A DNA stretch of 64,000 bases from Streptomyces sp. NBC_00490 (GTDB lineage Bacteria; Actinomycetota; Actinomycetes; Streptomycetales; Streptomycetaceae), in the NCBI RefSeq assembly GCF_036013645.1, contig NZ_CP107869.1, positions 248,001 to 312,000 of the forward strand. Direction: 5' to 3'. Below the pieces are notes generated by a model. It had not been told where the DNA came from, searched no databases, and worked only from the letters and a program-made list of their open reading frames with translations. Position numbers and translations under genes: made by a program. Shown here piece by piece: positions 638 through 36,508 of this stretch. How positions within the stretch are numbered: position 1 is the stretch's first letter; every line of letters begins with the position of its first letter.

Positions 638-664
638 GACCGCGAGACGCAGGCCGTTGTGACG
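638..664 (-). promoter_or_regulatory. ECF41-type promoter for the GNAT gene
   Basis: On the minus strand CGTCACA is followed by exactly 16 bases and GGTC. The -10 lies about 55 bp upstream of the ATG at 584. It is back to back with the plus-strand site at 691-717. Confidence 0.8.
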
Positions 665-690
665 TGCGCCGGTGCCACTTCCCGAGGGGC

Positions 691-717
691 TGTCACATAC
701 GCCTGCACCCCTCGGTC
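691..717 (+). promoter_or_regulatory. ECF41-type promoter for the EhpF/EhpG-like operon
   Basis: TGTCACA, 16 bases, GGTC, about 90 bp upstream of the ATG at 809. It shares a short divergent control region with the GNAT promoter. Confidence 0.85.
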
Positions 718-808
718 TTCTCTGCGAGAGCGGGTCGGGCCCGCGGGACCGCCCGAAACGCGCGGCTCTCGCGCGTCCGCCCTGAGCGACTTCGAGAAAG
801 GCGGTTCC

Positions 809-1909
809 ATGCCGATGGGCTCATTCACCGTTCTGGACGCCGGCCCCTTCGACGGGGTGGACCCCGACGATTACGTCAGGGCGGCCATGCAGTGGCACTT
901 CGCTCCCGAGACGGGGTCCCGGTACTGGCTGGAACGGGTCGACCGGCTCGGCTTCGACCCCCGCCACGACGTCAAGGGCGTGGCGGACCTGGCGCTCTTT
1001 CCCGATCTGACGGACGAGCTGCGCGATGTGCAGGTGTCCGATCTCGTCCCCCGCGGCTACGGTCCGCAGGCCCGACCGCTGCATGTGTTCGAGAGCGGCG
1101 GAACGACCGGGGCACCCAAGCGGGTCGTGCAGATGGTCGACTGGGCGCGGCACGGCAGCGAGCAGGTATCCCGCCGGCTCCGGGACCACGCACTGCCGGT
1201 CGGCGCGCTGTGGCTGACCGTGGCGCCGACCGGGCCGCACCTCGTGGGCGATGTGCTGCAACGGGCCGCGGCAAGTCTCGGCAGCCCCGGGCTGGGGGTC
1301 GACATGGATCCCCGCTGGGTCAAGAAGCTCATCGCCGCGGGCCGTCGCGACGAGGTCGACGCCTACACCGACCATCTCGTGGGCCAGTGTCGGCGCATCC
1401 TGCTCGGCCAGGACATCGGTGTCATAGCGGCCACCACCCCGATGCTGGAGCGCCTCGCCCGGGACAGCGACCTCGTGGAGGTCATCAACGGCAGAGCCCA
1501 GGCGATCATCTGGGGCGGCACCCACATGGATCCCGACACCCGGGACCTGTTGCGGACCGAGGTGTTTCCCGACGTGCCGCTGATCGGCATGTACGGCAAC
1601 ACCATGATGCTCACCGCGCTTTTGGAGCGGGTCGGTCTCTCGGCGTCGGAGCCGTGTGTGTTCGACCCCGTCTCGCCCTATGTCTTCCTGCGCATCGTGG
1701 ATCCCGACACCGGGCAACAGGTGGCGGAGGGCGAGCGGGGCCAGGTGGTAGTGAGCCACGTCAGCAAGTCCATGCTGATCCCCAACAACAGGGAGCGGGA
1801 CACCGCGTTGCGCATCCGCCCGGCTGACGGCCACGCCGGGGACGCCGTCGCCGACGTCGCGCCGGTTCCCGCCGTCGAGGGTGAGACGGTCATCGAGGGT
1901 GTCTACTGA
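809..1909 (+). CDS. EhpF-like adenylate-forming enzyme
   Basis: A 366-residue protein of the ANL (acyl/aryl-CoA synthetase) fold. The phosphate-binding loop SGGTTGAPKR sits at residues 96-105 and a degenerate A5-type motif (MYGNTM) near 263. It is much shorter than a full ligase because the usual C-terminal lid is almost absent, as in EhpF of griseoluteate biosynthesis, which activates a phenazine carboxylate before reduction. The predicted job is activation of an aromatic carboxylic acid for the next enzyme. The start was set at 809 because AAAGGCGG lies just upstream; an ATG two codons later is also possible. Its stop overlaps the next start (TGATG), so the two are translationally coupled. 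No phenazine core genes are in the window, so the substrate is unknown. Confidence 0.8.
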   Translation: MPMGSFTVLDAGPFDGVDPDDYVRAAMQWHFAPETGSRYWLERVDRLGFDPRHDVKGVADLALFPDLTDELRDVQVSDLVPRGYGPQARPLHVFESGGTTGAPKRVVQMVDWARHGSEQVSRRLRDHALPVGALWLTVAPTGPHLVGDVLQRAAASLGSPGLGVDMDPRWVKKLIAAGRRDEVDAYTDHLVGQCRRILLGQDIGVIAATTPMLERLARDSDLVEVINGRAQAIIWGGTHMDPDTRDLLRTEVFPDVPLIGMYGNTMMLTALLERVGLSASEPCVFDPVSPYVFLRIVDPDTGQQVAEGERGQVVVSHVSKSMLIPNNRERDTALRIRPADGHAGDAVADVAPVPAVEGETVIEGVY

Positions 1910-3303
1910 TGGCCCCCGTACCGACCACCGAGCCGCCGCACCTCGACGCCCTGGGCCCGCGGGGCACGTACCGCACGCGTGTGCCGAGCACGGTGACCGA
2001 CGTGGCCGGTGCACCGATCGCGCGGCTGAGTCTGGTTCCGCCGCTGTACGTGGCTCGGGCGATCGATGCCCTGCGCCAAGCGCCGCCGATCGCCGCGGCC
2101 GGCCTGGAGAGCGTGTTCGCCACCGCCGGGGAGGCCTTCGCCGCGGGCACCGTGGGGGGCTTGAGCGTCCGGGAATACGAACGTCACGTCAGCCGGACCT
2201 CGGGCACACCGCTCGCCGTGGTGCGCGCCGCGACCCGGGGCACGGCGCGTTTCGTTCGGCACGCCGCCTCGTCCGCCGACCGTGGCAGGCCGCGCGGCGC
2301 CGCCCGCGACCTCAGCGACCACGTCCTGTATGAGACGCACACGGTGTGGGCGCGTCAGGGCGACGTGTTCGCCGTCAACGCGTCCGGCAACCATCCCGGC
2401 GTACACCGTGTCTGGCTGGAGGCACTGGCGCTGGGTTACCGCGTCGCCGTGCGCCCGTCCCGGCGCGAGCCTTTTACCCCCTACCGGCTCGTCGCGGCAC
2501 TGCGTCAGGCGGGAATTCGGGACGACCAGCTCATGCTGCTGCCCACCGACCACGCGACCGCCGACACGCTCGTCCACGGCGCGGACCGGGCCGTGGTCTA
2601 CGGCGGCGACGACGTGGTGACCAAGTACGCGCACGACGCGAGGATCCTGCCGCAGGGGCCGGGACGGTCGAAGATCCTCATCACCGCGGACACCGACTGG
2701 CGTGACCATCTGGACGCCCTCGTCGCGTCCGTCGCCGGCGAGAGCGGCACGGCGTGCGTCAACGCCAGCGCCATCCTCGTCGAGGGCGACCCGGCCCCGC
2801 TCGCCGAAGCCCTCGCGGCACGTCTGGCCGTCCTGCCCAGCCTTCCCCCGCAAGACGAGCGGGCCCGTCTGCCGGTGTGTCCGAAGGAGCGGGCGCGGGC
2901 CCTCAGCGCGTATCTGAAAACCGTGGCGGCCGGGACGCGCGCGTGGCTCGGCAGCGGCGGGATCGCCGACGACCTCGGAGACGGCAGCGCTGTGCTGCGC
3001 CCCGCCGTGCACCAGACCGCGAGCGCCCGCGCCCCGCAACTGCGCACCGAACTGCCCTTCCCCTGCGTGTGGATTGCCCCCTGGACCCGCGCGGACGGCA
3101 TGGCGCCGCTGCGCAACACGCTGGTGCTGTCGGCACTGACCCGGGACCGGGACCTGTGGGAGGCCCTGGTCGCGGAACCCAGCATCGCCAACGTGTACTT
3201 CGGCGACCAGCCGACCCACTGGATGTCGCCGGGCGTCCCCCACGACAGCTATCTCTCCGACTTCCTGATGCGGAGCAAGGCGGTGTACGAGGGCCCGGTC
3301 TGA
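1909..3303 (+). CDS. EhpG/LuxC-like acyl-CoA reductase (aldehyde dehydrogenase fold)
   Basis: A 464-residue member of the aldehyde dehydrogenase superfamily, closest in layout to EhpG and LuxC, which reduce an activated carboxylate to an aldehyde with NAD(P)H. The expected nucleophile is Cys283 in the segment GESGTACVNAS. Together with the preceding adenylate-forming enzyme it forms the two-gene module that in phenazine producers turns a carboxyl group into an aldehyde or alcohol. It overlaps the preceding stop by one base and shares the ECF41-type promoter at 691-717. The function as a carboxylate-reducing pair is inferred from family knowledge; the natural acid is not identifiable here. Confidence 0.8.
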   Translation: MAPVPTTEPPHLDALGPRGTYRTRVPSTVTDVAGAPIARLSLVPPLYVARAIDALRQAPPIAAAGLESVFATAGEAFAAGTVGGLSVREYERHVSRTSGTPLAVVRAATRGTARFVRHAASSADRGRPRGAARDLSDHVLYETHTVWARQGDVFAVNASGNHPGVHRVWLEALALGYRVAVRPSRREPFTPYRLVAALRQAGIRDDQLMLLPTDHATADTLVHGADRAVVYGGDDVVTKYAHDARILPQGPGRSKILITADTDWRDHLDALVASVAGESGTACVNASAILVEGDPAPLAEALAARLAVLPSLPPQDERARLPVCPKERARALSAYLKTVAAGTRAWLGSGGIADDLGDGSAVLRPAVHQTASARAPQLRTELPFPCVWIAPWTRADGMAPLRNTLVLSALTRDRDLWEALVAEPSIANVYFGDQPTHWMSPGVPHDSYLSDFLMRSKAVYEGPV

Positions 3304-3476
3304 ACGGCGCTCGCCTCCTCGGCGCGGGCCTGCCGAGAGCGGCGCCCGCCCCTCGGGTGGGCGGCGACCCTCGCTCCGGCCGTCCGGCGCGGTGGTCCGC
3401 GGTCACACTCAGCGCTTGACCGCGGGCCTCCGCGTCTTCGCCGTGCCGGGCGCGGGCCCGTTCTTCTTCCCTGCAC

Positions 3477-4097
3477 TCAGTGGGGCAGGACCAGCATCAC
3501 GGCCGTCCCGAGCGCCATTGCCCCTTCGCTCACGTGCCGTGACGGCGTCGCCGCCGCGGCACGGCGGGCCGCGCTCACGGCCGAGCGCAGAGAGGGCATG
3601 GGGCGGGTCAGCGACCACAGCGCATACGCCAGCAGACAGGACGCCAGCGACAGCGTGATCAGGGAGCCGCCGAGGAGGTCACCAGCGCCCAGAGCGCCGG
3701 GCCCGGTGGAGTGCGCAGCCGAACCGAGGTGTGCGTGCGCCGGTCCGGTCCCGGTGTGCGGCACGCGCAGCATCCAGGCCATCGCGGCCATACCGGCCGC
3801 GTGCGGCAGCCGGTGGGTCATCGCCGCCCTCCTGCTGGCCTCCCGGCGGCCGACAGGCAGGACAAACCACACCGTGCCGGCGGTGAAGACACCGCCGGCG
3901 ACGGCAGCGGGCCCCGCGCGGAGGTCGATCCAGGGCATCGCCGCCATGGACACGGCCATGGCGGCGGCCAACAGCCGGTCCACCCGGGCGCCGAACCCGG
4001 TCCTGGGGGACCCGACGCCCGGGGCCATTCCATGCAGGAGCACCGCCACAAACAGCAGCGTCAGCAGGCAGTGCACCAGGACGACGGGCGTGCCCAT
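3477..4097 (-). CDS. DUF5134-type integral membrane protein
   Basis: A 206-residue, strongly hydrophobic protein with about five or six predicted membrane spans (for example residues 4-24, 38-56, 62-82, 92-112, 140-165 and 185-204) and a His/Met-rich segment around 100-125 (HTGTGPAHAHLG). This fits the actinobacterial DUF5134 family, whose function is unknown. It starts 17 bp after the stop of the cupin gene on the same strand, so the two form an operon under the ECF41-type promoter at 4626-4652. The His/Met content could suggest metal handling, which is speculation. Confidence 0.75.
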   Translation of the reverse strand: MGTPVVLVHCLLTLLFVAVLLHGMAPGVGSPRTGFGARVDRLLAAAMAVSMAAMPWIDLRAGPAAVAGGVFTAGTVWFVLPVGRREASRRAAMTHRLPHAAGMAAMAWMLRVPHTGTGPAHAHLGSAAHSTGPGALGAGDLLGGSLITLSLASCLLAYALWSLTRPMPSLRSAVSAARRAAAATPSRHVSEGAMALGTAVMLVLPH

Positions 4098-4114: not shown

Positions 4115-4582
4115 TCAGGTGGTGGGACGCGGTGCCCGCAGGTGGGCGCGCTCCGCCAGTTCCTTCTCGTCGACCAGTTCCAGCATGGGCTTGCCCGGCG
4201 CGCACATCATGGTCACCACGAACCGGGTCCGCGCGTCGGAAAGCGCGTTGCCGTCCTGGTAGTGGATGGCGTCTCCGCCGGGCTCCCAGAAGGTGTCTCC
4301 CGCCTTCACTACGCGCTCGGGCTCGCCCTCGAGCTCGAAGCGGACCGCGCCCTCGACGACGTAGCCGAAGGCGGGGCCGGAGTGCCGGTGCGGGGGCGTG
4401 CCCGGGTCGCCCGGCTCCCACTCGACGAGAATGGTCATCGCCGACGCCCCCTCCGGGACGGTGATCGGTGCGGCGTCCTGGAGCAGCTTCGCCGCCGTCA
4501 TCCAGCCGGCGGTCCCTTCCTGGTCGCCGTGCCCGTGGTGGCCGTGGGCGGAGTGGTCGTGTGCTGTCGTGTTGTCCGACAC
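4115..4582 (-). CDS. Cupin-domain protein
   Basis: A 155-residue single-domain cupin. The conserved motif 1 is visible as PHRHSGPAFGYVVEG and motif 2 as DTFWEPGGDAIHYQDGN, with the usual His and Glu metal ligands. A His-rich head (HDHSAHGHHGHGD) precedes the domain. The GTG at 4582 was preferred over an upstream ATG because GGAAGG lies 10 nt before it. Such stand-alone cupins often are small metal-dependent oxygenases, isomerases or sensors; the reaction is unknown. First gene of an operon with the DUF5134 protein. Confidence 0.8.
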   Translation of the reverse strand: MSDNTTAHDHSAHGHHGHGDQEGTAGWMTAAKLLQDAAPITVPEGASAMTILVEWEPGDPGTPPHRHSGPAFGYVVEGAVRFELEGEPERVVKAGDTFWEPGGDAIHYQDGNALSDARTRFVVTMMCAPGKPMLELVDEKELAERAHLRAPRPTT

Positions 4583-4625: not shown

Positions 4626-4652
4626 GACCGGGGACCGGGCGCATGTGTGACA
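4626..4652 (-). promoter_or_regulatory. ECF41-type promoter for the cupin/DUF5134 operon
   Basis: Minus-strand TGTCACA, 16 bases, GGTC. The -10 ends 43 bp upstream of the GTG start at 4582. Confidence 0.88.
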
Positions 4653-4871: not shown

Positions 4872-5768
4872 ATGCGCGCTGGCGCCCACCCCGACACGTT
4901 CGACCGCGGTCTTGACGACTTCCTCTCGGCCAGACCCCGACTGTTCGGCATCGCGTACCGCATCCTCGGCAGTGCCGTCGAGGCCGAGGACATCGTCCAG
5001 GACGCCTGGCTGCGATGGCAGAACACCGATCGCGCGCAGATCCATGAACCAGCCGCCTTCCTGAGCACGGTCACCACCCGGCTCGCGATCAACCTGGCCC
5101 AGTCCGCGCGGGTACGCCGGGAGTCCTACGTCGGGCCTTGGCTCCCCGAGCCGGTCGACACTGCCCAGGACCCGCACCTGGGGGCGGAACGCGCCGAGGC
5201 GGTCGAGCTGGCGGTGCTGTTGTTGATGGAGAAGCTCAACCCGATCGAACGCGCCGCCTACGTGCTGCGGGAGGCGTTCGATTACCCCTACCAGCGGGTC
5301 GCCGACATCCTGGAGACCAGCGACGCGAACGCTCGGCAGCTGGTGAGCCGGGCGCGCAAGCACCTGGGCGCCGAGCGCAAGGAGCGCGTCAGCCCCGCGG
5401 CCCACCGGAGTCTGCTCGAAGGCTTCCTCTCCGCCGCGCGCACGGGAGATCTCTCCACCCTGGAGGACCTGCTGACCGCGGACGTCGTCAGCTATTCGGA
5501 CGGCGGCGGCATCCGCGGCGCGTCCAGGATCCCCGTCTTCGGCCGCGAACACGTCTCGCGTTACCTGGCTGCCTTCGCCCCGCGGTTCTGGCCGGATGCC
5601 GAGACCCGGTTCGTCGAGGCGAACGGCCGGCCCGCCGTGCTCGTCGCACGGGACAACGCCCCGGTGGCCCTGTTGTGCGTGGACGCCTCCGAGGCCGGCA
5701 TCGAGCGCATCATGTGGGTGATGAACCCGGCCAAGCTGAACCCCTACGTCCTGTCCCTGGGGGCCTGA
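4872..5768 (+). CDS. ECF41-family sigma factor with SnoaL-like C-terminal domain (copy a)
   Basis: A 298-residue ECF sigma factor. Region 2 covers about residues 14-85 (AEDIVQDAWLRW), region 4 about 120-165 (IERAAYVLREAF, then the helix-turn-helix), and a SnoaL-like extension fills 175-298. The ECF41 signature motifs are present: WLPEP at ~90-94, SDGGGI in the extension and NPAKL near the C-terminus (usually NPDKL). In ECF41 factors the fused domain replaces an anti-sigma factor and both inhibits and supports activity. GAAGGGA lies before the ATG. Unlike copies b and e it has no TGTCACA promoter of its own; a 9-bp direct repeat (GCGCGTAGC at 4813 and 4832) lies upstream. It may be the entry point that starts the regulon. 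Confidence 0.92.
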   Translation: MRAGAHPDTFDRGLDDFLSARPRLFGIAYRILGSAVEAEDIVQDAWLRWQNTDRAQIHEPAAFLSTVTTRLAINLAQSARVRRESYVGPWLPEPVDTAQDPHLGAERAEAVELAVLLLMEKLNPIERAAYVLREAFDYPYQRVADILETSDANARQLVSRARKHLGAERKERVSPAAHRSLLEGFLSAARTGDLSTLEDLLTADVVSYSDGGGIRGASRIPVFGREHVSRYLAAFAPRFWPDAETRFVEANGRPAVLVARDNAPVALLCVDASEAGIERIMWVMNPAKLNPYVLSLGA

Positions 5769-5804: not shown

Positions 5805-6179
5805 TCACCACGGGAACCACAGGTCGGCGTCGACGGCCTCCTCCTTGCGGGCGGCAAACCCGGACAGGTCGTTCTTGACCGCGTGCTGCGGGGGCAGGGC
5901 CGCGACCACCCGATGGTCGGCCCGCGTGGTGCCCTGCCCCGGCGCGTCGCGGAAGTACTCGGCGTTCACGGACCGGTACTGCGCCCACTGCGCCGGCAGG
6001 TCGTCCTCGTGGAAGACGGCCTCAACCGGGCAGACCGGCTCGCAGGCGTGGCAGTCGACGCACTCCCAGGGATTGATGTACAGCGTCCGCTCGCCCTCGT
6101 AGATGCAGTCGACCGGGCACTCGATCACACACGCCCGGTCCTTGACGTCGACGCACGGCTCCGCGATGACGTAGGTCAT
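5805..6179 (-). CDS. fdxA: Seven-iron ferredoxin, FdxA type
   Basis: A 124-residue ferredoxin. The N-terminal cluster motif has Cys in EPCVDVKDRACVIECPVDCI (3Fe-4S/4Fe-4S pattern) and the second is CVDCHACEPVCPVEA, a classical 4Fe-4S CxxCxxCxxxCP motif. This arrangement and length fit actinobacterial 7Fe ferredoxins that pass electrons to cytochromes P450 or reductases. GGGGAGG lies before the ATG. It is divergent from the flavoprotein gene and both have ECF41-type promoters, so they should be induced together. A decayed ferredoxin reductase gene with the same promoter lies at 35892-36407. Confidence 0.92.
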   Translation of the reverse strand: MTYVIAEPCVDVKDRACVIECPVDCIYEGERTLYINPWECVDCHACEPVCPVEAVFHEDDLPAQWAQYRSVNAEYFRDAPGQGTTRADHRVVAALPPQHAVKNDLSGFAARKEEAVDADLWFPW

Positions 6180-6253: not shown

Positions 6254-6280
6254 GACCGGCCCGGCCGCCGCAGTGTGACA
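6254..6280 (-). promoter_or_regulatory. ECF41-type promoter for the ferredoxin gene
   Basis: Minus-strand TGTCACA, 16 bases, GGTC, about 75 bp upstream of the ferredoxin ATG. Confidence 0.88.
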
Positions 6281-6308: not shown

Positions 6309-6335
6309 TGTCACAAACCGCCACTCCACCTGGTC
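6309..6335 (+). promoter_or_regulatory. ECF41-type promoter for the flavoprotein gene
   Basis: TGTCACA, 16 bases, GGTC. The -10 ends 23-35 bp upstream of the candidate starts at 6359 and 6371, so the leader is very short. The two back-to-back -35 boxes of this divergent pair are 28 bp apart. Confidence 0.88.
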
Positions 6336-8145: not shown

Positions 8146-8172
8146 TGTCACAGCGCCGATCAATTCCCGGTC
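8146..8172 (+). promoter_or_regulatory. ECF41-type promoter for the NmrA-like gene
   Basis: TGTCACA, 16 bases, GGTC, 48 bp upstream of the ATG at 8220. Confidence 0.88.
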
Positions 8173-8219: not shown

Positions 8220-8966
8220 ATGAAGGTCGTAGTGATCGGCGGCACCGGACTGATCGGCTCGAAGGTCGTCAGCAAGCTCAACGAACACGGCCACGAGGCG
8301 GTGGCGGCCGCCCCGAACACCGGCGTCAACACCCTGACCGGCGAGGGCCTGGCCGAGGTGCTGGAGGGCGCGGCCGTCGTGATCGACGTCTCCAACTCTC
8401 CCTCCTTCGCGGACGACGCCGTCATGGAGTTCTTCCGCACCTCCACCACCAACCTCCTCAAGGCGGAGGCGAACGCCGGTGTCACCCACCACGTCGCCCT
8501 GTCGGTGGTGGGTACGGAACGGCTCCAGGACAGCGGCTACTTCCGTGCCAAGCAGGCGCAGGAAGAACTGATCAAGGAATCCGGGATCCCGTGGTCGATC
8601 GTGCACGCCACGCAGTTCTTCGAGTTCATGAAGGGCATCGCCGAGTCGGCGACCGAGGGTGACACCGTCAAGCTGGCCCCGGTGAAGATCCAGCCCGTCT
8701 ATTCGGACGACGTCGCCGCCACCGTGGGCCGCACCGCCGTGGGCACTCCGGTCAACGGTGTGGTCGAGGTGGCCGGTCCCGACACCTTCCAGCTGGACGA
8801 GCTGATCCGCAAGGGTCTGGCCGCCAAGAACGACCCGCGCACGGTCGTCGCCGACGTGCACGCGCCGTACTTCGGCGCCGAGCTGCAGGAGACCACGCTG
8901 CTTCCCGGCCCGGACGCCCGCATCGGCGAGACCCGTTTCGGCGACTGGCTCGCCCAGCAGCAGTAG
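8220..8966 (+). CDS. NmrA-like NAD(P)-binding epimerase/reductase family protein
   Basis: A 248-residue Rossmann-fold protein starting with the nucleotide motif GGTGLIGSKVV. It belongs to the atypical short-chain dehydrogenases (NmrA/epimerase group) that bind NAD(P) and may act as redox sensors or reductases. Members of this group are among the classic ECF41 partner genes (carboxymuconolactone decarboxylases, oxidoreductases, epimerases). AAAGGA precedes the ATG. A strong hairpin terminator follows at 8979-9021. A paralogue lies at 19466-20206 and shares the C-terminal LLPGPDA segment. The reaction is not predictable. Confidence 0.88.
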   Translation: MKVVVIGGTGLIGSKVVSKLNEHGHEAVAAAPNTGVNTLTGEGLAEVLEGAAVVIDVSNSPSFADDAVMEFFRTSTTNLLKAEANAGVTHHVALSVVGTERLQDSGYFRAKQAQEELIKESGIPWSIVHATQFFEFMKGIAESATEGDTVKLAPVKIQPVYSDDVAATVGRTAVGTPVNGVVEVAGPDTFQLDELIRKGLAAKNDPRTVVADVHAPYFGAELQETTLLPGPDARIGETRFGDWLAQQQ

Positions 8967-9095: not shown

Positions 9096-9122
9096 TGTCA
9101 CAGCGTCCTTGGTCCCTCGGTC
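9096..9122 (+). promoter_or_regulatory. ECF41-type promoter for sigma factor copy b
   Basis: TGTCACA, 16 bases, GGTC, about 88 bp upstream of the ATG at 9211. It makes copy b a candidate for autoregulation. Confidence 0.88.
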
Positions 9123-9210: not shown

Positions 9211-10215
9211 ATGTATCCAGAGGCATCCCCCACAGAGGCACCCCCCGCCGACAGGAACCTCGCCGAGGCCGTCACCACCTTCGTCGAACTGCGGCCCCGG
9301 CTCTTCGGTATCGCCTACCGCGTCCTGGGCAGCGCGACGGAAGCCGAGGACGTCGTGCAGGAGGCGTGGCTGCGCTGGCAGCGGACCGACCGTTCGGCGG
9401 TGGTCAGCCCCGCGGCGTTCCTGTCGAGCACCACGACGAGGCTGGCCATCAACGTGGCGCAGTCCGCCCGCGTACGCCGCGAGACCTACATCGGGCCCTG
9501 GCTGCCCGAACCCATCGACACCAGCATCGACCCGGTGGCCGGAGCCGAACGCGCCGAGGCCCTGGAACTCGCCCTGCTCCTCGTCCTGCAGAAGCTCACC
9601 CCCATCGAGCGGGCCGCCTACGTGCTGAGGGAGGCCTTCGAGTACGGCTACCCGGAGATCGCGGCCATCCTGCGCCTCACCCCGGTCAACGCCAGGAAGA
9701 TCGTGAGCAGGGCGCGCAAACACCTCACCGACGACGAGCGGGACAGTGTCGACGTCCAGGAGCACCGCAGGCTGCTCGATGCTTTCGTCGCGGCCGCCCA
9801 GGAAGGGGACGTCGCCTCGCTGGAAGCGCTCCTGACGCCCGACGCGGTCAGTCTGTCCGACGGCAACGGGCTGCGCGGCGCGGCCCGCGTGCCCGTGGTC
9901 GGTCGTGCCCGGGTGGCGAACCTGTCGACCGCCTCGTCCCGCTTCTGGCCGACGGTCGAGTTCGCATCCGTGCAGGCCAACGGGCGCACCGGGGTCCTGC
10001 TGTACCGCGACGGCCGGCCCGCCACCTTCATGACCATCGCCGCCACACGGCGGGGGATCCACCGGGTTCTGTGGGTGTTCACCCCAGACAAGATCGCCGC
10101 CTTCCTCGGATCCCGCGCCGGCTGCGCGCCCCCGCCCGCGCGTCCCGGCCACGCCGTGGCACGTGAGCTCACCCGGGAAGGGAACGGTTCCAGCTACGCA
10201 GCTTGTCGGGGTTGA
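9211..10215 (+). CDS. ECF41-family sigma factor with SnoaL-like C-terminal domain (copy b)
   Basis: A 334-residue ECF sigma factor very similar in plan to copy a. Region 2 contains ATEAEDVVQEAWLRW, the linker has WLPEP at 97-101, region 4 holds IERAAYVLREAFEYGYPEI, and the SnoaL-like domain follows from about residue 190 with LSDGNGL and TPDKI in place of the usual DGGGK and NPDKL. It has a perfect ECF41-type promoter, so positive autoregulation is likely. The 3' end overlaps the convergent degenerate copy c by 47 bp, with a C-terminal tail (after TPDKI) of about 45 residues unlike other family members, suggesting that the original end was lost. Confidence 0.92.
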   Translation: MYPEASPTEAPPADRNLAEAVTTFVELRPRLFGIAYRVLGSATEAEDVVQEAWLRWQRTDRSAVVSPAAFLSSTTTRLAINVAQSARVRRETYIGPWLPEPIDTSIDPVAGAERAEALELALLLVLQKLTPIERAAYVLREAFEYGYPEIAAILRLTPVNARKIVSRARKHLTDDERDSVDVQEHRRLLDAFVAAAQEGDVASLEALLTPDAVSLSDGNGLRGAARVPVVGRARVANLSTASSRFWPTVEFASVQANGRTGVLLYRDGRPATFMTIAATRRGIHRVLWVFTPDKIAAFLGSRAGCAPPPARPGHAVARELTREGNGSSYAACRG

Positions 10216-12620: not shown

Positions 12621-12766
12621 TCACCCGCGGGGCGGCAACCGCCGCCCCGCACCCCCGCTTGCAGCCGGATACGGGCACGCGGCCGTCACAGTCCGGTGCC
12701 CCGCGCGGTCTGAGCTGCGGGAGACACAAGTGGTGTCCCTGCCCCTACCCCGGCGGAGAAGCAAGC

Positions 12767-28788: not shown

Positions 28789-28815
28789 TGTCACAGGAAC
28801 TCCCTTCGGACGGTC
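28789..28815 (+). promoter_or_regulatory. ECF41-type promoter for the WhiB-like gene
   Basis: TGTCACA, 16 bases, GGTC, 42 bp upstream of the ATG at 28858. Confidence 0.88.
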
Positions 28816-28857: not shown

Positions 28858-29124
28858 ATGAGTTGGCGCGAGAGAGCGGCCTGCCAGGATGTAGACCCCG
28901 ACCTGTTCTTCCCCATCGGCACCGCGGGTCTGACGCTGGTCCAGATCGACGAGGCGAAGGCCGTGTGCGCCCGGTGCCCCGTGCGGGAGCGGTGTCTGCA
29001 GTGGGCTCTGGACGCCGGTCAGGTCGAGGGCATCTGGGGCGGCACGACGGAGAGCGAGCGCCGCGCGACGCGACGACGCTCGGCGCGTAAGGACGTCGAG
29101 CGCATCAGCGCGAAGGCGTCCTGA
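28858..29124 (+). CDS. WhiB-like iron-sulphur regulator
   Basis: An 88-residue Wbl protein. Four cluster-binding cysteines are at 9, 37, 40 and 46 (CxxC and C-x5-C spacing) followed by the GIWGG turn at 59-63 and a basic tail (RRATRRRSARK) for DNA or sigma contact. Wbl proteins sense redox or nitric oxide through a 4Fe-4S cluster and act with sigma factors. It is placed between ECF41-type promoters and directly ahead of the orphan qcrB, which suggests a redox link. Confidence 0.93.
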   Translation: MSWRERAACQDVDPDLFFPIGTAGLTLVQIDEAKAVCARCPVRERCLQWALDAGQVEGIWGGTTESERRATRRRSARKDVERISAKAS

Positions 29125-29160: not shown

Positions 29161-29187
29161 TGTCACACCTTCACCACTTTCTCGGTC
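29161..29187 (+). promoter_or_regulatory. ECF41-type promoter for the cytochrome b gene
   Basis: TGTCACA, 16 bases, GGTC, 111 bp upstream of the ATG at 29299. Confidence 0.88.
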
Positions 29188-29298: not shown

Positions 29299-30930
29299 AT
29301 GAGCGACGCAATCGAACCGGTCACTACGACGGGCAGCCCCAGCGGTGGCAAAATCGCCGACTGGGCGAGAACGCGGATGGGCATCGGGCCCACCACAACG
29401 ACCGGCACTCGCAGGGCCCGTCCGGAGCACTGGTCGTTCCTGCTGGGCGAGATCTGTCTCTACAGCTTCTTCGTCCTGCTCGTCACCGGTGTGTATCTGA
29501 CGTTCTACTTCCACCCGTCGTCGAACGAGGTCGTCTACGACGGCAGTTACGCTCCACTGCGCGGCCAGATCGTGTCCGAGGCGTTCGACTCGACGATGCA
29601 CATCTCCTTCGACGTACGTGGCGGCCTGCTCATCCGCCAGGCCCACCACTGGGCGGCACTGATCTTCGTCGCCTCCCTGCTGGCCCACCTGATGCGCGTG
29701 TTCTTCACCGGCGCCTTCCGCAAGCCTCGCGAGCTGACCTGGGTGGCCGGTTTCGCCCTGCTCATCCTCGGCATGCTCGGTGGCCTGACCGGCTACGACC
29801 TCCCCGGCGACCTCCTGTCGGGAACCGGGCTCGCCGTGGTGAACGGGACACTTCTGTCGGTACCGATCGTCGGTACCGACCTGTCGATGTTCCTGTTCGG
29901 CGGCGAGTTCCCCGGGCACGACCTGGTGCCCCGCTTCCACGTGATCCACGTCCTGGTCATTCCGGCGCTGATGCTGGCGCTCGTCGCCTTCCACGCCTTC
30001 CTCGGGCACCGACACCGACACACCCAGTACCCGGGGCCAGGCCGTACGGAGCACAACGTGGCCGGCCTGCCGATGCAGGTGTACGTGGTCAAGGCGGCCG
30101 GCTATTTCGGCATGGTCGCCGGGGCCATCTTCACCATCGCCGCGATCGCCCAGATCAACCCCGTCTGGGAGTTCGGCCCCTATCGCGCCGATCAGGTCTC
30201 CGCCGGATCCCAGCCCGACTGGTACATGGGCATCGCAGACGGGCTGCTGCGTGTCATGCCCGGGTGGGAGGTGAACTTCTGGGGCCACACCCTGGCCCTG
30301 GACAATCTGATCCCTCTCCTCGCCGGCTTCGGCTTCCTCCTCGTCATGGGCGCCTACCCGTTCATCGAGGCCTGGGTCACCGACGACGACCACGAACACC
30401 ACCTGCTGGAACGGCCACGCAACCGGCCCGTGCGCACGGCGTTCGGCGTGGCATGGCTCGGCGTCTACCTGGTGGCACTGCTCGGAGCCGCGAACGACAT
30501 CATCGCCGTGACCTTCCACCTGTCGGTCAACACGGTCACCTGGACGGTGCGCATCGCCCTGTTCGTCGTACCGGTCGTCCTCTTCCGCGTGACCAAGCGC
30601 ATCGCCCTGGGTCTGCAACGCCGCGATCGCGACAAGGTCCTGCACGGCCGCGAAACAGGTGTCATCACGCGCCTGCCGCACGGCGAGTACGCAGAGGTGC
30701 ACCAGCCCCTCGACCCTTACCAGCTCCATGCCCTCACGGCGCACGAGCAGTACCGGCCCCTCGACCCGGGACGACGCGACGCAGACGGCCACGCGAGCGG
30801 CAAGGCGCGACGGCTGCGCGCGCGACTCAGCCGCGGCTTCTACGGCGAGGGGACACAGATCCTCAAGCCCACCGTCCAGGAGTACCGGAAGATCACCGGC
30901 AAACATCACTCCACCAGCAAAAAGGACTAA
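29299..30930 (+). CDS. qcrB: Cytochrome bc1 complex cytochrome b subunit, orphan copy
   Basis: A 543-residue actinobacterial-type QcrB with eight or nine membrane spans. The haem-ligand histidines are visible in RQAHHWAALIFVASLLAH and in HVIHVLVIPALML...FHAFLGHRH. The C-terminal cytosolic tail (from ~430) is the extended type of actinobacteria. In the normal respiratory chain it sits in a qcrCAB cluster and takes electrons from menaquinol; here neither qcrA nor qcrC is present, so this is a second, stand-alone copy driven by an ECF41-type promoter. It may replace the housekeeping subunit under stress (inference). Confidence 0.93.
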   Translation: MSDAIEPVTTTGSPSGGKIADWARTRMGIGPTTTTGTRRARPEHWSFLLGEICLYSFFVLLVTGVYLTFYFHPSSNEVVYDGSYAPLRGQIVSEAFDSTMHISFDVRGGLLIRQAHHWAALIFVASLLAHLMRVFFTGAFRKPRELTWVAGFALLILGMLGGLTGYDLPGDLLSGTGLAVVNGTLLSVPIVGTDLSMFLFGGEFPGHDLVPRFHVIHVLVIPALMLALVAFHAFLGHRHRHTQYPGPGRTEHNVAGLPMQVYVVKAAGYFGMVAGAIFTIAAIAQINPVWEFGPYRADQVSAGSQPDWYMGIADGLLRVMPGWEVNFWGHTLALDNLIPLLAGFGFLLVMGAYPFIEAWVTDDDHEHHLLERPRNRPVRTAFGVAWLGVYLVALLGAANDIIAVTFHLSVNTVTWTVRIALFVVPVVLFRVTKRIALGLQRRDRDKVLHGRETGVITRLPHGEYAEVHQPLDPYQLHALTAHEQYRPLDPGRRDADGHASGKARRLRARLSRGFYGEGTQILKPTVQEYRKITGKHHSTSKKD

Positions 30931-30940
30931 AGAAACAAAG

Positions 30941-30967
30941 TGTCACACCTGCGATACGCACACGGTC
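30941..30967 (+). promoter_or_regulatory. ECF41-type promoter for the exported hydrolase
   Basis: TGTCACA, 16 bases, GGTC, starting 11 bp after the qcrB stop and 40 bp upstream of the ATG at 31008. Confidence 0.88.
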
Positions 30968-31007: not shown

Positions 31008-31856
31008 ATGAACCGCAGTTCCACCTACCAGCGGGTCCGCACCCCGCTCTCCCTCCTGGCCACCGCCTCCGTCGCCACCGCCCTCATCGCCACGGCAGTC
31101 GCCCCCGCCCACGCGGACAGAACCACGTCCGCACCGGACAGCGAGACGAAGCCCACGGTGGTACTCGTGCACGGCGCGTTCGCCGATTCCACCAGCTGGA
31201 ACGGCGTCATCAAGAGGCTGCGGCACGAGGGCTACCCCGTCGTCGCCGCGGCCAACCCGCTGCGCGGGCTGGACAACGACGCCTCCTACCTCAAGGAGGT
31301 CCTGGCCGGCATCGACGGCCCGGTGGTCCTGGCCGGACACTCCTACGGCGGATCGGTGATCAGCGACGCCGCCCACGACGCCGCCAACGTCAAGGCTCTG
31401 GTGTTCGTCGCCGCCTTCCTCCCCGAAAACGGGGAGAGCGCCGTCGAGTTGTCGGGCAAGTTCCCCGGCAGCACCCTCGGCGACGCTCTGCGCTCCGTGC
31501 CAGTCACCCTGCCGGACGGCTCCCGCGACGCCGACCTGACGATCGAACCGAGCAAGTTCCACCAGCAGTTCGCCGCTGACGTCCCCCGCAACACCACGGA
31601 CCTCATGGCCGTCACACAGCGCCCGATCACCAATGCCGCGCTGGCGGACGACGCCTCCGAGCCCGGTTGGAAGGACATCCCGTCCTGGGCCGTGGTCGCC
31701 ACCCAGGACCGCAACATCCCGGCGCAGACCCAGATCTTCATGGCACAGCGCGCACACGCCCACATCACGCGTGTACGGGCCTCGCACGCCGTGAGTGTCT
31801 CCCACCCCGCCGACGTCGCCGGGGTGATCGAGGCAGCCGCTCGGACCGTGCGCTGA
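31008..31856 (+). CDS. Exported alpha/beta hydrolase
   Basis: A 282-residue hydrolase with a Sec signal peptide (hydrophobic core LLATASVATALIATAVA, cleavage likely after AHA near residue 36). The mature part contains VHGAFADSTSW, the nucleophile in GHSYGG and a His in ASHAVSVSHPAD. It is the secreted paralogue of the cytosolic hydrolase at 14650-15369. Both are in ECF41-type transcription units, so the pair would act inside and outside the cell on a similar ester substrate. Confidence 0.9.
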   Translation: MNRSSTYQRVRTPLSLLATASVATALIATAVAPAHADRTTSAPDSETKPTVVLVHGAFADSTSWNGVIKRLRHEGYPVVAAANPLRGLDNDASYLKEVLAGIDGPVVLAGHSYGGSVISDAAHDAANVKALVFVAAFLPENGESAVELSGKFPGSTLGDALRSVPVTLPDGSRDADLTIEPSKFHQQFAADVPRNTTDLMAVTQRPITNAALADDASEPGWKDIPSWAVVATQDRNIPAQTQIFMAQRAHAHITRVRASHAVSVSHPADVAGVIEAAARTVR

Positions 31857-31974: not shown

Positions 31975-33036
31975 TCAGCCGCGGTCTTCCGGAGCGACGT
32001 AGTCGAAGGTCGGGCCCGCGGTCAGGCCCTCGCCGTCGGACATCGACATCAGGCTCTGTGCCTGCCCCTTGAGCGCGTACATCGTGCCCACCGACACCCC
32101 GAGCATCGCAGGATTGCCGTTGAACGCCTGCTCCAGGAGCTGCAGCAGCTTGCCGTACGCGATGTTGAACGCCTCCTGCGCCGTGCGGATCGCGCTGCCT
32201 TCCGGATGGTCCTGCAGCCGCGGGTTGGGCCGCATCGGGCGCACCCCGGCGCGGTCGACGGTGATCGTCTCGCCGGTGGGGCCTGTCTCCGGTGTGTCCC
32301 CCGGCTGGTAGCGCCGGCCCTGTGCGAGCTCCTGGAAGCGGTAGTAGTGCGAGACCGCCTTGGTCTGCGGGTGGAACATGTCCATGTCCCCGTCCCACAC
32401 GTCGAAGCGTGCCGCGCCCTCGCCCTGCTCCACGATCTCCTCCAGGGCGGAGAGCGCCGAGGCGAGATCGGTGACCGGGCTCAGCCGCCCGCCGGTGTGC
32501 CCGAAGGGTCCTGCGGCCACCTGGCGGGCGGGATCACCGGTGAAGACCTTTTCCTCGCCGAGCTCGGCGCACAGGTGTCGCAGGCCCTTCTCGATCGCGT
32601 CGTAGAACTGACCGATCGTCATGTAGGCGTCGCCCTCGGCCGGGTCGCCCGGGTGGGCGGGTTGTTCGAGGCGGAGGAACATGGTGAGCGCCTCCTGCCC
32701 GAACGGCAGCAGGGACAGCTGCAGGGAGGGGTCGGCGTGCGGCATGGGCCGCGGATGCGGCGACAGTATCCGCGGGGTGTCGACGCGAGGTTGCCCGCCC
32801 ACCGCGTTCAGGAGGTTCGCCACCAGAGCGAGGTGGATCATCTCCTCGACGAACACACTGCTGACCACTTCGACGGCGTGGGCGTTCCGCTCGGGGTCGA
32901 GGGAGTAGAGGGCTGTGAGGTAGGGCGGCAGCGTGGCGTGCTCCAGCTCGATGGCCCACTGCAGGTGCTCGCGCAGGTCCTCCATCGTCGTGATCGAGCG
33001 GAACCGGGCCTGGCCGGTGGGGTCTTGAGGATTCAT
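31975..33036 (-). CDS. Ferritin-like (VioB/iminophenylpyruvate dimer synthase-type) protein
   Basis: A 353-residue protein with a ferritin-like helical N-terminal domain. The metal-binding pattern is visible as LQWAIELEHATLPPYLTALYSL and, about 30 residues later, VEEMIHLALVANLLNAVGG (Glu, His and ExxH). This is the domain of VioB/StaD-type enzymes and many uncharacterised actinobacterial proteins. The C-terminal half (AFNIAYGKLLQLLEQAFNGN) contains a further helical pair. GGTGAG precedes the ATG. A 120-bp gap without ECF41-type site separates it from yceI, so both are probably one operon. Confidence 0.82.
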   Translation of the reverse strand: MNPQDPTGQARFRSITTMEDLREHLQWAIELEHATLPPYLTALYSLDPERNAHAVEVVSSVFVEEMIHLALVANLLNAVGGQPRVDTPRILSPHPRPMPHADPSLQLSLLPFGQEALTMFLRLEQPAHPGDPAEGDAYMTIGQFYDAIEKGLRHLCAELGEEKVFTGDPARQVAAGPFGHTGGRLSPVTDLASALSALEEIVEQGEGAARFDVWDGDMDMFHPQTKAVSHYYRFQELAQGRRYQPGDTPETGPTGETITVDRAGVRPMRPNPRLQDHPEGSAIRTAQEAFNIAYGKLLQLLEQAFNGNPAMLGVSVGTMYALKGQAQSLMSMSDGEGLTAGPTFDYVAPEDRG

Positions 33037-33156: not shown

Positions 33157-33729
33157 TCATGCGGCTTCCGCGCGGGAGAGGCGGACGGCGGAGATGTCGA
33201 AGCTGAGCCTGACCTTGTCGCTGATGAGGACGCCGCCGGTCTCGACGGGCGTGCTCCCGCCGAGTCCCCAGTCGGAGCGGCGCACCAGGGCGGTGCCGGA
33301 GAAGCCGACACGGTGGTCTCCGCTCTCGTCCTGCGTGGCCCCCTCGAAGGCGAGGTGGATGTGGAGAGGGAGTTCGACGTCCTTGATCCTGAGGTGGCCC
33401 GTCAGGCGGAACTGACCGTCTCCGCGGTCAGCAAGGCCCGCGGAGCGAAAGAGCATCAGCGGATAGGTGGCGGCGTCGAAGAAGTCCGGGCCCGTGAGAT
33501 GGGTGTCCCGGTCAGGGCTGCTCGTGTCGATGCTGCCGGTCTGGACGCTCAAGTAGGCCTCGGAGCGGCTGGGTTGATACCCGTCCAGCTTGACCAGCCC
33601 CTCGAACGCGCCGAACCGTCCGTGCACGTTCGCGATCATGGCGTGCCGGACGGAGAAGCCGATGGTGCTGCGTACCGGGTCGATGGTGTAGACACCCGTC
33701 AGCGCTGTGTACGGGACGACGGTCGACAT
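33157..33729 (-). CDS. YceI-family lipocalin-like protein
   Basis: A 190-residue YceI protein: an eight-stranded beta barrel that binds isoprenoid-like lipids. Diagnostic segments are YTIDPVRSTIGFSVRHAMIANVHGRF near the N-terminus (split here as two strands) and FRLTGHLRIKDVELPL. There is no signal peptide, so it is cytosolic, as in many actinobacterial members. It may bind a quinone or polyprenoid, which fits the respiratory and redox genes around it (inference). ECF41-type promoter with TGTC as -10 upstream. Confidence 0.9.
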   Translation of the reverse strand: MSTVVPYTALTGVYTIDPVRSTIGFSVRHAMIANVHGRFGAFEGLVKLDGYQPSRSEAYLSVQTGSIDTSSPDRDTHLTGPDFFDAATYPLMLFRSAGLADRGDGQFRLTGHLRIKDVELPLHIHLAFEGATQDESGDHRVGFSGTALVRRSDWGLGGSTPVETGGVLISDKVRLSFDISAVRLSRAEAA

Positions 33730-33848: not shown

Positions 33849-33875
33849 GACAGGTGAGGGCCCGCGCGTGTGACA
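33849..33875 (-). promoter_or_regulatory. ECF41-type promoter for yceI (TGTC variant)
   Basis: Minus-strand TGTCACA, 16 bases, TGTC. The -10 differs from the local GGTC in its first base only; 119 bp from the ATG. Confidence 0.75.
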
Positions 33876-33907: not shown

Positions 33908-34702
33908 TCACAGCGTGTCGGCGCGTGAACGCGCCGTCACGCGCGTCGTAACGGTCAGCACCGCGGGATCGCCCGTGTCGGGTAGCGGGGTGAAGCCGTG
34001 CTCGGCCAGCTCCACGACGATGTCGTCCCGGGAGGCCGGCCACATCCAGAAGGTCTCGGTGTGCTCGCGCAGGACACCGGTCACGTCCCGCACCCAGTAG
34101 TCGAAACGTGTCCGGATGCGGCCCGCGTCGGCGGACAGCACCATGTGCCCGCCGTACTCGTGCCGGCCGAGTGTCTGAGCGGGCAGCGGGTGGACGGTGC
34201 GCACCCGCGGAGGGCGTGCGGGGGGAAGCTGCAGCAGGAAGACGCCGCCGGGACAGAGCGCTTCGGCGACGGCGGGGTAAAGGCGGCGGCGCGAGGACGG
34301 ATCCAGGCACGCGAGGGTGTTGTGGCAGACGGCGACGTCCGCGACACCGCGCAGACCGGTCTCAGGGAGGGTGCAGGGGTGGACGGTGACCCGTCCGCGC
34401 ACGTCGGCGGGCAAGGACGCGATCCGGGTCATCAGGGCGGCGCGCATGGACCGCGCGGGCTCGACGGCATGCACGCCGACGTCGGACCCGGCGAGGCCCA
34501 GCAGGGTGACACGGCCGGTGCCCGCGCCGATGTCCAGCACACCGACCCGCGCGTTGCCGACCGCTTCTCCGTACAGTTCCCGCACGTGCGCGGCATCGGC
34601 CTCGCCTTGCAGCACGTCGTAGAACTCGGCACTGACGGCGTAGGCCTCTGCGGAGGGCGCGCTCGCCGGACGGGCGGGCGAACGGGACGAAAGCGAGTAC
34701 AT
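33908..34702 (-). CDS. SAM-dependent methyltransferase, class I
   Basis: A 264-residue methyltransferase. Motif I is VLDIGAGTGRVTL (about residues 54-66), the acidic residue ending strand 2 is in VHAVEPARSM, and motif IV is DVAVCHNTLACL. The substrate is unknown. Its ATG is only 9 bp downstream of the -10 box, so the mRNA is probably leaderless, which is common in Streptomyces. Confidence 0.88.
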   Translation of the reverse strand: MYSLSSRSPARPASAPSAEAYAVSAEFYDVLQGEADAAHVRELYGEAVGNARVGVLDIGAGTGRVTLLGLAGSDVGVHAVEPARSMRAALMTRIASLPADVRGRVTVHPCTLPETGLRGVADVAVCHNTLACLDPSSRRRLYPAVAEALCPGGVFLLQLPPARPPRVRTVHPLPAQTLGRHEYGGHMVLSADAGRIRTRFDYWVRDVTGVLREHTETFWMWPASRDDIVVELAEHGFTPLPDTGDPAVLTVTTRVTARSRADTL

Positions 34703-34711: not shown

Positions 34712-34738
34712 GACAGGTCCGCCGCCTCATCTGTGACG
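34712..34738 (-). promoter_or_regulatory. ECF41-type promoter for the methyltransferase (TGTC variant)
   Basis: Minus-strand CGTCACA, 16 bases, TGTC. The -10 edge is 9 bp from the start codon. Confidence 0.75.
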
Positions 34739-35669: not shown

Positions 35670-35809
35670 CCCGCGCCGGTCGGCGATGGGGCGCGGACCG
35701 GCGGGCCGCCTCGGACACGGCCGTGGAACACGGACGTCGTCCGCGCCCTCGTCGCGCTGCTCCGCTCTGCTCTGGCAGGTCCGCACGCAGCCTCCGCGCC
35801 CCGGGCCGG

Positions 35810-35836
35810 TGTCACACCCTGCGGGTTCTCAGGGTC
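35810..35836 (+). promoter_or_regulatory. ECF41-type promoter in front of a pseudogene
   Basis: Perfect TGTCACA, 16 bases, GGTC, 55 bp upstream of the remnant reductase start. Confidence 0.83.
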
Positions 35837-35891
35837 TCACCACACGAGGACACACCAGTGTGCGGTGCGCGCGAGCGGAGACGGGAACATC

Positions 35892-36407
35892 ATGTCGCGA
35901 GCAAGCGGCTTCGTGATCGTCGGGGGCGGCCTCGCCGCGGGCAAGGCGGCCGAGGAACTCCGGCAACAGGGCTACGACGGCCCGCTCGTCCTCATCGGGG
36001 ACGAGGCTGGGGGGACGTCACCAACGCCTGCCATCCCCGGCTGGCCGGCATCTGCGGCTGGAGCACTGGGCCAACGCCCTGCACCAGCCCCGCACGGCGG
36101 CACTGGCCATGCTCGGCAAGGAGGCCGCGTACAACCGGCTGCCGTACTTCTACACCGACCAGTACGACCTCGGGAGTACACGGGGTACACCGAGCCCGGC
36201 GGCTACGATCGCGTCGTCTTCCGCGGGAACCCGGCCGAGCGGCGGTTCATCGCCTTCTGGCTGTCCGGGGACCGGGTCCTGGCGGGCATGAGTGTGAACG
36301 AGTGGAACGTCATCGACTCCGTCCGCGTCCTCGTCGAGTCCGGTGCCTCCGTAGCGGACGCGGCACTGTCCGATCCCGAGACGCCCCTCGACAGCCTTCT
36401 GCCCTGA
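35892..36407 (+). pseudogene. Decayed FAD-dependent ferredoxin reductase
   Basis: The first ~30 codons encode the FAD-binding start of a rubredoxin/ferredoxin reductase (VIVGGGLAAGKAAEELRQQG). After a large internal deletion the text continues in another frame with EHWANALHQPRTAALAMLG and RLPYFYTDQYDLG, the conserved end of the NAD domain, and then a further frameshift leads to YTGYTEPGGYDRVVFRGNP and a C-terminal domain that ends in LDSLLP. Roughly 250 central residues are lost and at least two frameshifts are present. An intact form would have been the natural partner of the ferredoxin at 5805-6179. The continuous frame over this span is only partly real. Confidence 0.88.
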
Positions 36408-36481
36408 CGACCGCTGCGAAGGTCCGCGCGGCGCGGCCCGCCGGCGCAGGCGCGGGCGCCGCTGCGTACGCCCGGGAACCG

Positions 36482-36508
36482 TGTCACACGATCTGTCCCT
36501 GTCCGGTC
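36482..36508 (+). promoter_or_regulatory. ECF41-type promoter for sigma factor copy e
   Basis: TGTCACA, 16 bases, GGTC, 122 bp upstream of the ATG at 36631, pointing to autoregulation. Confidence 0.87.

Follow-up and report, generated by a model that had tools for sequence, protein, structure and literature searches.

A 46.6-kb Streptomyces island with 23 ECF41-type promoter-like sites and a probable shared regulon

A 64,000-nucleotide stretch of the genome of Streptomyces sp. NBC_00490 (C1:248001-312000 of an assembly of 10,798,493 bases in two contigs), referred to below as the window, carries part of an island of promoter-like sites and five genes of the ECF41 family of sigma factors. The island extends over 46.6 kb (C1 237920-284508) and contains 23 exact copies of the motif YGTCACA-N16-KGTC. 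Judged from the sequence, the sites are likely, with a probability of about 0.8, to be promoters of one shared regulon that is read by the resident ECF41-family factors. The sequence itself establishes the sites with their spacing, orientation, and conservation, their co-occurrence with ECF41 genes, and the truncated sigma forms; promoter activity, the sigma factor that reads the sites, the signal, the hierarchy, and the physiology are inferred. The initial annotation of the window had proposed a single-motif ECF41 regulon of 18 promoters in 36 kb served by five ECF41 factors. Its regulon reading is supported, and the genome-wide density of the motif agrees with it. All 18 sites were recovered; the size has to be corrected upwards, the island is also present in other streptomycetes, its -10 element is mostly C[G/T]GTC, and the five factors belong to two clades.

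Each of the 18 sites matches YGTCACA-N16-KGTC exactly on the strand given for it. One further exact site, at 12684-12710+, had been missed and brings the total in the window to 19. Four more exact sites are located to the left of the window (C1 237920+, 239001+, 243746- and 244274+), and the cluster begins 10 kb outside it on that side. The statement that the part from 36.6 to 64 kb lacks correctly spaced matches holds for exact sites; the window scan with one mismatch contains a site at 47582-. When up to one mismatch to TGTCACA-N16-KGTC is allowed, the window has 22 matches, compared with a mean of 1.95 in shuffled sequences, and none of 100 shuffles reached 22.

The genome scan suggested in the initial annotation was run with three exact patterns and a reversed pattern as a control. 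The motif is not equally common across the genome: the island is about 350 times denser than the rest, and the ratio ranges from 354 to 2423 depending on the pattern. The island holds 19 of the 22 exact genome-wide sites of TGTCACA-N16-KGTC (reversed control 0), 23 of the 38 sites of YGTCACA-N16-KGTC, that is, in 0.43% of the genome, and 21 of the 23 sites of YGTCACA-N15-CKGTC. With one mismatch allowed, the whole genome gives 453 matches and the reversed control 295; this small excess indicates that one-mismatch matches outside the island are mostly due to chance. A chance origin of the cluster itself is ruled out by the shuffles, the reversed control, and the excess in density.

The spacing between the two half-sites is nearly invariant. 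In a 94-kb stretch, N16 yields the 23 sites, whereas each other spacing from 10 to 23 yields 0-3, with one site at spacing 17 and none at 15. The sites agree with the ECF41 promoter in the -35 element TGTCACA and the spacer of 16 ± 1 nucleotides. A palindromic operator is ruled out, since the site is asymmetric and its spacing fixed. Of the 23 sites, 22 face a frame on the right strand without an insertion in between; two of these frames are shortened copies. Downstream of most sites, the start codon of a coding frame is located at a plausible distance.

Related loci were fetched with the FrdA-like protein of the island as the query, and the best 80 of at least 590 relatives, in 79 loci, were kept. 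Among the matches listed, the closest FrdA loci (98% identity) include those of S. panaciradicis and S. humidus. The 79 loci contain 481 exact sites, compared with 2 for the reversed pattern. Other spacings give 2-48 sites; base counts show that the 48 at N11 arise at least partly because spacers end in TGTC before CGGTC. At least one site is present in all 71 loci from Streptomyces, Embleya, Actinacidiphila, Catenulispora, and one Nocardiopsis, and at least five in 51 of them. The other eight FrdA loci, which from their genus names we take to belong to Microbacteriaceae, are without a site and yielded no ECF41 gene. The record named Nocardiopsis sp. FR4 (L084) has an island with an FrdA 92% identical to that of the window, and represents either a cross-genus transfer or a mislabelled record.

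Within these loci, 450 of the 481 sites are positioned no more than 350 nucleotides upstream of a gene start on the right strand, with a median of 52 nucleotides. The strand-flipped control still reaches 202 of 481 because many gene pairs are divergent. A sequence logo of 479 distinct sites has conserved bases outside the searched letters: a C precedes the -10 element in 87%, the bases just after it are A/T-rich, and purines occur 6-10 nucleotides downstream. These bases fit a promoter, as would be expected from the proposed function. The -10 element begins with G in 87% of the sites and with T in 13%.

The sites are retained by individual gene families. Orthologues were defined as best matches at 45% identity or higher, and a site was scored when it stood directly upstream in the fetched loci. 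The fraction with a site is highest for ferredoxin (16/16), OsmC (15/15), the ferredoxin reductase family (15/15), WhiB (12/13), the hydrolase g039 (10/11), and FrdA (72/80). It is 25/30 for the cupin g027, 21/27 for the decarboxylase, 53/70 for the NmrA-like g031, 14/19 for the methyltransferase, 5/6 for the hydrolase at 17675+, 7/12 for the cupin at 18745+, 15/27 for QcrB frames, 7/17 for AceE, and 4/16 for the hydrolase at 31008+. None of the orthologues of the LAL (0/9) and TetR (0/6) regulators has a site. The gene order varies between species, and the sites stay with their genes.

Islands in further genomes rule out that the cluster is private to this genome. Prevalence was estimated in a sample of 295 Streptomyces genomes out of a larger group, with site counts read by eye from a table. 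The pattern TGTCACA-N15-CGGTC occurs at least five times in 34 of them and at least ten times in 24, and the reversed control has a maximum of 3. The packing of TGTCACA-N16-GGTC was determined in eight single genomes. The sites are concentrated in G142 (17 of 20 in 65 kb), G196 (18 of 19 in 62 kb), G270 (16 of 21 in 62 kb), G129 (7 of 10 in 23 kb, reversed control 1), G133 (5 of 5 in 8 kb, reversed control 2), and G231 (5 of 6 in 12 kb, reversed control 2).

The presence of an island coincides with that of a close relative of g028. All 33 site-rich genomes (at least five sites, with the genome of the window excluded) were compared with 33 genomes that have no strict site, and at most 36 candidates were scored per genome. 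A close g028 relative (E ≤ 1.4e-106) is present in 32 of the 33 site-rich genomes, whereas in all 33 genomes without a strict site the best g028 match is no better than 9.6e-73. The exception is G129, with a best match of 2.2e-69 and a nine-site island. Within 38 kb, the only relative of the ECF41 proteins of the window in G129 is a short 222-residue ECF41 beside a LAL gene.

The five factors of the window (g028, g032, g033, g046, and g056, names also used here for the corresponding types) differ in domain composition. The window does hold five genes of the family, as had been claimed, with the ECF41 identity borne out in full by the profiles for g028 and in part for the others; g033 lacks region 4 and g046 lacks most of the C-terminal extension. 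Stretches similar to DGGG and NPDKL, which we take to be the motifs of the C-terminal extension, are present in g028, g032, g056, and g033; in g046 the extension is cut short. In the comparison with TIGR02957 and NF007214, presumably models of ECF41, g033 matches in two pieces, and it has no match in Pfam. The Pfam scan of the window proteins at E ≤ 0.001 contained no SnoaL match. The best match of g028 in the PDB is Mycobacterium tuberculosis SigJ (5xe7), over residues 14-242. The linker between regions 2 and 4 reads WLPEP in g028 and g032 and WLPES in g046, and the motif is absent from g056 and g033. WLPEP in this linker is described as an ECF41 trait in passages of PMC3426412. The neighbours are of the types known for the family: an NmrA-like gene adjoins g032, and the island contains a carboxymuconolactone decarboxylase gene.

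Phylogenetic analysis, with both strands searched for frames, separates the island factors into a g028/g032/g046 clade and a g056/g033 clade, both with an ultrafast bootstrap (UFBoot) of 100 and an SH-aLRT of 100. The tree includes 35 island rows (the five window proteins and 30 rows from 13 fetched loci) and ten other ECF41 proteins of the genome, none of which is placed inside either island clade. The genome has 49 reported matches in all, most of which belong to other ECF groups; weaker outside ones (among L039-L054) were left out of the tree. Two of the ten outside ECF41 genes have the published form TGTCACA-N16-CGTC about 100-120 nucleotides upstream, a third is flanked by a site of the TGTC type, and the other seven have none in the stretch searched. 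One ECF41 from a fetched locus (L105) groups with an outside gene, indicating that island loci can also hold other ECF41 genes. The sigma genes differ in how often a site precedes them: 4/52 for the g028 type, 15/32 for g032, 24/36 for g056, and 0/10 for g046. One alignment inspected for a sigma region that could explain the altered -10 element gave no clear answer.

Short forms recur within the g028/g032/g046 clade. The protein g046 and four aligned relatives stop soon after the start of the extension and lack both the DGGG-like and the NPDKL-like motifs. In the fetched loci and genomes, 23 genes of the clade are C-terminally short, two of which are one doubtful 144-residue frame counted twice (L082 and G020, the same record), and 88 extend as far as g028. 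Of the 23 short genes, 8 directly adjoin a LAL gene (in the window, G020, G142, L092, L094, L134, G049, and G129), compared with 1 of the 88 full-length genes. Some g032-type genes are also short, and the shortening therefore seems to have happened more than once. The frame of g033 is conserved in six close relatives with a ratio of nonsynonymous to synonymous substitution rates of 0.26-0.40, which is similar to g032 (0.27-0.43) and higher than g028 (0.14-0.25). A 222-residue relative in L138 also lacks region 4 in the alignment. It is possible that g033 acts as a sigma decoy or a ligand-binding regulator.

Several observations weigh against the shared-regulon reading. The -10 element of the island is GGTC or TGTC, mostly C[G/T]GTC, and does not match the published CGTC; in the 79 loci, KGTC occurs 481 times, CGTC 8 times, and AGTC 6 times. 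Fifteen YGTCACA-N16-KGTC sites are located elsewhere in the genome. Some genomes without strict sites hold looser YGTCACA-N15-CKGTC sites, five in G003, and the packing is loose in two of the eight genomes scanned, G217 and G297, with reversed controls that reach 2. On visual inspection, the genomes rich in sites seem to be larger than those without, and this difference could by itself raise the number of ECF genes in general. No ECF41 gene was found in the fetched stretch of 11 of the 71 site-bearing loci. No right-strand start follows within 350 nucleotides for 31 of the 481 sites, 4 of which lie only inside genes and 27 neither before nor inside one. In some families many orthologues lack a directly preceding site, namely NmrA (17/70), AceE (10/17), and YceI (16/16), partly because they are second in operons. 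Only g028 exceeds the cut-offs of both NCBIfam models; g032 falls short of TIGR02957 by 1.65 bits and of NF007214 with 262.6 against 271, and g046 and g056 are under both, in the case of TIGR02957 by a wide margin. The protein g056 lacks the WLPEP linker, with DGGGK and NPDKL kept. Of the short ECF41 genes, 15 of 23 are not beside a LAL gene; for three of them, the contig or stretch ends on one side of the gene.

The existence of two well-separated clades in one island raises the alternative of two overlapping regulons, in which the g028/g032/g046 and g056/g033 clades read different subsets of sites, for example, those with GGTC and TGTC. The split of the first -10 base and the divergent linker of g056 are in line with this arrangement. 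It is nevertheless rather unlikely, since loci in which only a g028-type factor was found still carry several sites, such as the six in L084. Less probable still are ordinary ECF41-plus-neighbour pairs standing side by side, each sigma factor with one neighbour and the motif as a family resemblance. Control of a single transcript is what passages of PMC3426412 and PMC6180224 describe for ECF41 factors, and the window has five family genes and classic neighbours of the carboxymuconolactone decarboxylase and NmrA-like types. However, no more than four factors possess both binding regions, compared with 23 sites, and most sites precede genes that have no ECF41 neighbour. Sites also far outnumber sigma factors in L084 (six, with one ECF41 found) and G129 (nine, with one short ECF41 found in 38 kb), and the -10 variant is common to the island, unlike the CGTC of two ECF41 genes elsewhere in the genome. 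A role of the sites as operators for a different regulator of the island is highly improbable: LAL/LuxR, WhiB, TetR, and MarR-type genes are present in the window, but the sites are non-palindromic with a spacing fixed at 16, their left half is the published ECF41 -35, the downstream bases resemble a melting region and start, and relatives of TetR and LAL occur in few site-bearing loci (6 and 9 orthologues), whereas the presence of ECF41 tracks the sites.

If the sites are promoters of one ECF41 regulon, each would provide a -35 element (TGTCACA) and a -10 element (C[G/T]GTC, with an A/T-rich step after it), and transcription by RNA polymerase with one of the island's ECF41 factors would begin about 6-10 bases downstream. 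The control may be layered. Full-length g028, which is rarely preceded by a site, would be a ligand-gated sensor, and g032 and g056, often preceded by one, would amplify the response. The product of g046, which ends near the published hyperactive truncation points and is encoded beside a LAL/LuxR gene, could be an always-active sigma factor gated by its own transcription. Without region 4, g033 would not bind the -35 element; it might act as a competitor that binds the ligand.

The gene content suggests functions in redox and electron transfer and in peroxide or electrophile handling. The putative regulon would include ferredoxin, ferredoxin reductase, the FrdA-like flavoprotein, OsmC, carboxymuconolactone decarboxylase, NmrA-like oxidoreductases, WhiB, and YceI, together with additional QcrB, AceE, and ketol-acid reductoisomerase copies. 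In response to redox or electrophile stress, the regulon might switch electron transfer and central metabolism, and we infer oxidative or respiratory stress as the signal. A more elaborate picture is tentative, with slightly less than an even chance: a reshuffling regulon island, carried by about one tenth of the sampled Streptomyces, in which a LAL-gated, always-active short ECF41, ligand-gated paralogues, and a region-4-less decoy drive about 20 promoters of backup enzymes of redox and central metabolism.

Table 1 Coordinates of promoter-like sites and genes of the island. Positions are those of the window, except for the carboxymuconolactone decarboxylase gene.
Feature	Position	Strand	Facing gene or basis of assignment
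Site CGTCACA-N16-GGTC	638..664	-	before 207-residue frame (-39..584-)
Promoter-like site	691..717	+	before 809-3303+
AMP-binding-domain protein, 366 residues	809..1909	+	Pfam PF00501
Aldehyde-dehydrogenase-family protein, 464 residues, adjoins AMP-binding gene	1909..3303	+	PF00171; weak LuxC, PF05893 under cut-off
DUF5134 protein	3477..4097	-	Pfam PF17197
Cupin (g027)	4115..4582	-	Pfam PF07883
Promoter-like site	4626..4652	-	before cupin 4115-4582-
ECF41 g028, full length, without own site	4872..5768	+	TIGR02957 351.9 bits, over cut-off 323.25
4Fe-4S ferredoxin	5805..6179	-	Pfam Fer4
Promoter-like site	6254..6280	-	before ferredoxin
Promoter-like site	6309..6335	+	before FrdA-like flavoprotein
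FrdA/SdhA-like FAD flavoprotein, 576 residues	6371..8101	+	Pfam PF00890, PF02910
Promoter-like site	8146..8172	+	before NmrA-like oxidoreductase
NmrA-like/NAD-binding oxidoreductase (g031)	8220..8966	+	Pfam PF13460, PF05368
Promoter-like site	9096..9122	+	before ECF41 g032
ECF41 g032	9211..10215	+	TIGR02957 321.6 bits, just under cut-off 323.25
ECF41 paralogue g033, without region 4	10169..10891	-	sigma2-like part and C-terminal extension with DSGGK, NPDKL
Promoter-like site	12684..12710	+	insertion sequence between site and OsmC
IS200/IS605-type transposase (OrfB)	12784..13992	-	Pfam PF01385, PF07282, PF12323
OsmC-like protein	14154..14558	+	Pfam PF02566
Alpha/beta hydrolase, behind 15418-16368-	14650..15369	-	Pfam PF12697
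Alpha/beta hydrolase, Abhydrolase_3 (g039)	15418..16368	-	Pfam PF07859
Promoter-like site	16415..16441	-	before 15418-16368-
Promoter-like site	17423..17449	+	before 17675+ (225 nucleotides)
Alpha/beta hydrolase	17675..18622	+	Pfam PF00561
Promoter-like site	18662..18688	+	before cupin 18745-19239+
Cupin	18745..19239	+	Pfam PF07883
Promoter-like site	19340..19366	+	before NmrA-like gene and aceE
NmrA-like oxidoreductase	19466..20206	+	Pfam PF13460
Pyruvate dehydrogenase E1 (AceE)	20293..22980	+	TIGR00759 1238.5 bits
Large AAA_16-GerE (LAL/LuxR-type) regulator, without site	23364..26135	+	Pfam PF13191, PF00196
ECF41 g046, C-terminally short, without site	26540..27271	+	TIGR02957 match stops at model position 200 of 281
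Promoter-like site	28789..28815	+	before WhiB
WhiB-like protein	28858..29124	+	Pfam PF02467
Promoter-like site	29161..29187	+	before QcrB
QcrB (cytochrome bc1 cytochrome b) paralogue	29299..30930	+	NF050120 686 bits, over cut-off 500
Promoter-like site	30941..30967	+	before 31008+
Alpha/beta hydrolase	31008..31856	+	Pfam PF12697
Ferritin-like protein, behind YceI	31975..33036	-	PF12902
YceI-like protein, start reset from 33906 to 33729	33157..33729	-	Pfam PF04264
Promoter-like site	33849..33875	-	before YceI
Methyltransferase-like protein	33908..34702	-	Pfam PF08242
Promoter-like site	34712..34738	-	before methyltransferase
Promoter-like site	35810..35836	+	before shortened ferredoxin reductase
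Ferredoxin-reductase-like frame, 171 codons	35892..36404	+	Reductase_C; 410 residues in the one relative scanned
Promoter-like site, right edge of cluster	36482..36508	+	before ECF41 g056
ECF41-family g056, second clade	36631..37497	+	TIGR02957 184.5 bits, under cut-off
Carboxymuconolactone decarboxylase in island	L023:11945-12412		

Ketol-acid reductoisomerase is encoded 118 nucleotides behind the 207-residue frame at the left edge of the window, an orthologue of which has similarity to GNAT under the Pfam cut-off. To the left of the window, the site at C1 237920+ faces a decayed FrdA-like copy; other sites there face an NmrA-like gene followed by the carboxymuconolactone decarboxylase gene, a SpoIIE-type phosphatase, and a 77-residue frame. 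The genome holds three copies of AceE, four of QcrB, and three of ketol-acid reductoisomerase over the family cut-offs, with one of each in the island. On the second contig (C2, 0.23 Mb), there are two ECF41 matches of full length and one copy of QcrB. The adjoining AMP-binding and aldehyde-dehydrogenase genes (809-3303+) may encode a fatty-acyl or carboxylate reductase pair. A second IS200/IS605-type transposase gene of the island (L023:17617-18822, plus strand) is 92% identical to that at 12784-13992-. A 182-residue protein is encoded 0.5 kb behind g056 (37991-38539, plus strand) and near ECF41 genes in several relatives. It has no Pfam match, appears by eye to combine a coiled coil with a winged helix, and has an upstream site in none of 21 orthologues.

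A regulon of this size would put ECF41 factors in control of many genes, in contrast to a switch for a single gene. The island would provide a natural test set for the bypass of a fused regulatory domain and for the drift of the -10 element from CGTC to C[G/T]GTC, and would also exemplify the cohesion of a regulon despite changing gene order. The resemblance of the natural short forms to laboratory hyperactive alleles would make the autoinhibition model directly testable. A physiological switch is predicted that combines extra QcrB, AceE, and ketol-acid reductoisomerase with ferredoxin and FrdA-like genes.

No such ECF41 island appears in the literature titles and abstract openings or in the passages of PMC3426412, PMC6180224, PMC8999054, PMC8103513, PMC11256431, and PMC9205884 that were covered, and an earlier mention is possible. 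According to passages of PMC3426412, an ECF41 factor controls one gene or operon, and a Streptomyces genome encodes many such factors. The rule of a single target, as it was stated in the initial annotation, is borne out by the members studied in the covered parts of PMC3426412 and PMC6180224. It was not absolute before, as indicated by a paper title in the references of a review, which names an Azospirillum ECF41 controlling motility and lateral flagella. A citation in a review (PMC8103513, in part) links M. tuberculosis SigJ to hydrogen peroxide sensitivity.

The ECF41 systems of Bacillus licheniformis and Rhodobacter sphaeroides, as described in passages of PMC3426412, resemble the island in sigma factor family, in the -35 element TGTCACA and the spacing of 16 ± 1, and in the types of neighbouring genes (carboxymuconolactone decarboxylase, oxidoreductase, and epimerase). 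The promoter cited in the initial annotation, TGTCACA-N16-CGTC, agrees with the TGTCACA-n16-CGTC given there. However, these systems have a single target operon and a CGTC -10 element, whereas the island has several sigma paralogues and 23 predicted sites, mostly with C[G/T]GTC, for about 20 genes or operons as targets; judged by its number of sites, the island departs from the classic single-target mode. RpoE9 of Sinorhizobium meliloti (passages of PMC6180224) is also an ECF41 factor, and its promoter is of the type seen in the island; unlike the island, it has one target that is likely cotranscribed with the sigma gene. In the parts of PMC3426412 covered, removal of the whole C-terminal extension abolished ECF41 activity, whereas removal of its later part raised it, by about 20-fold and 120-fold in the truncations Ecf41Bli-204 and Ecf41Rsp-206. 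Those truncations are laboratory constructs, whereas the g046 lineage, known from its sequence, is a natural and recurring look-alike.

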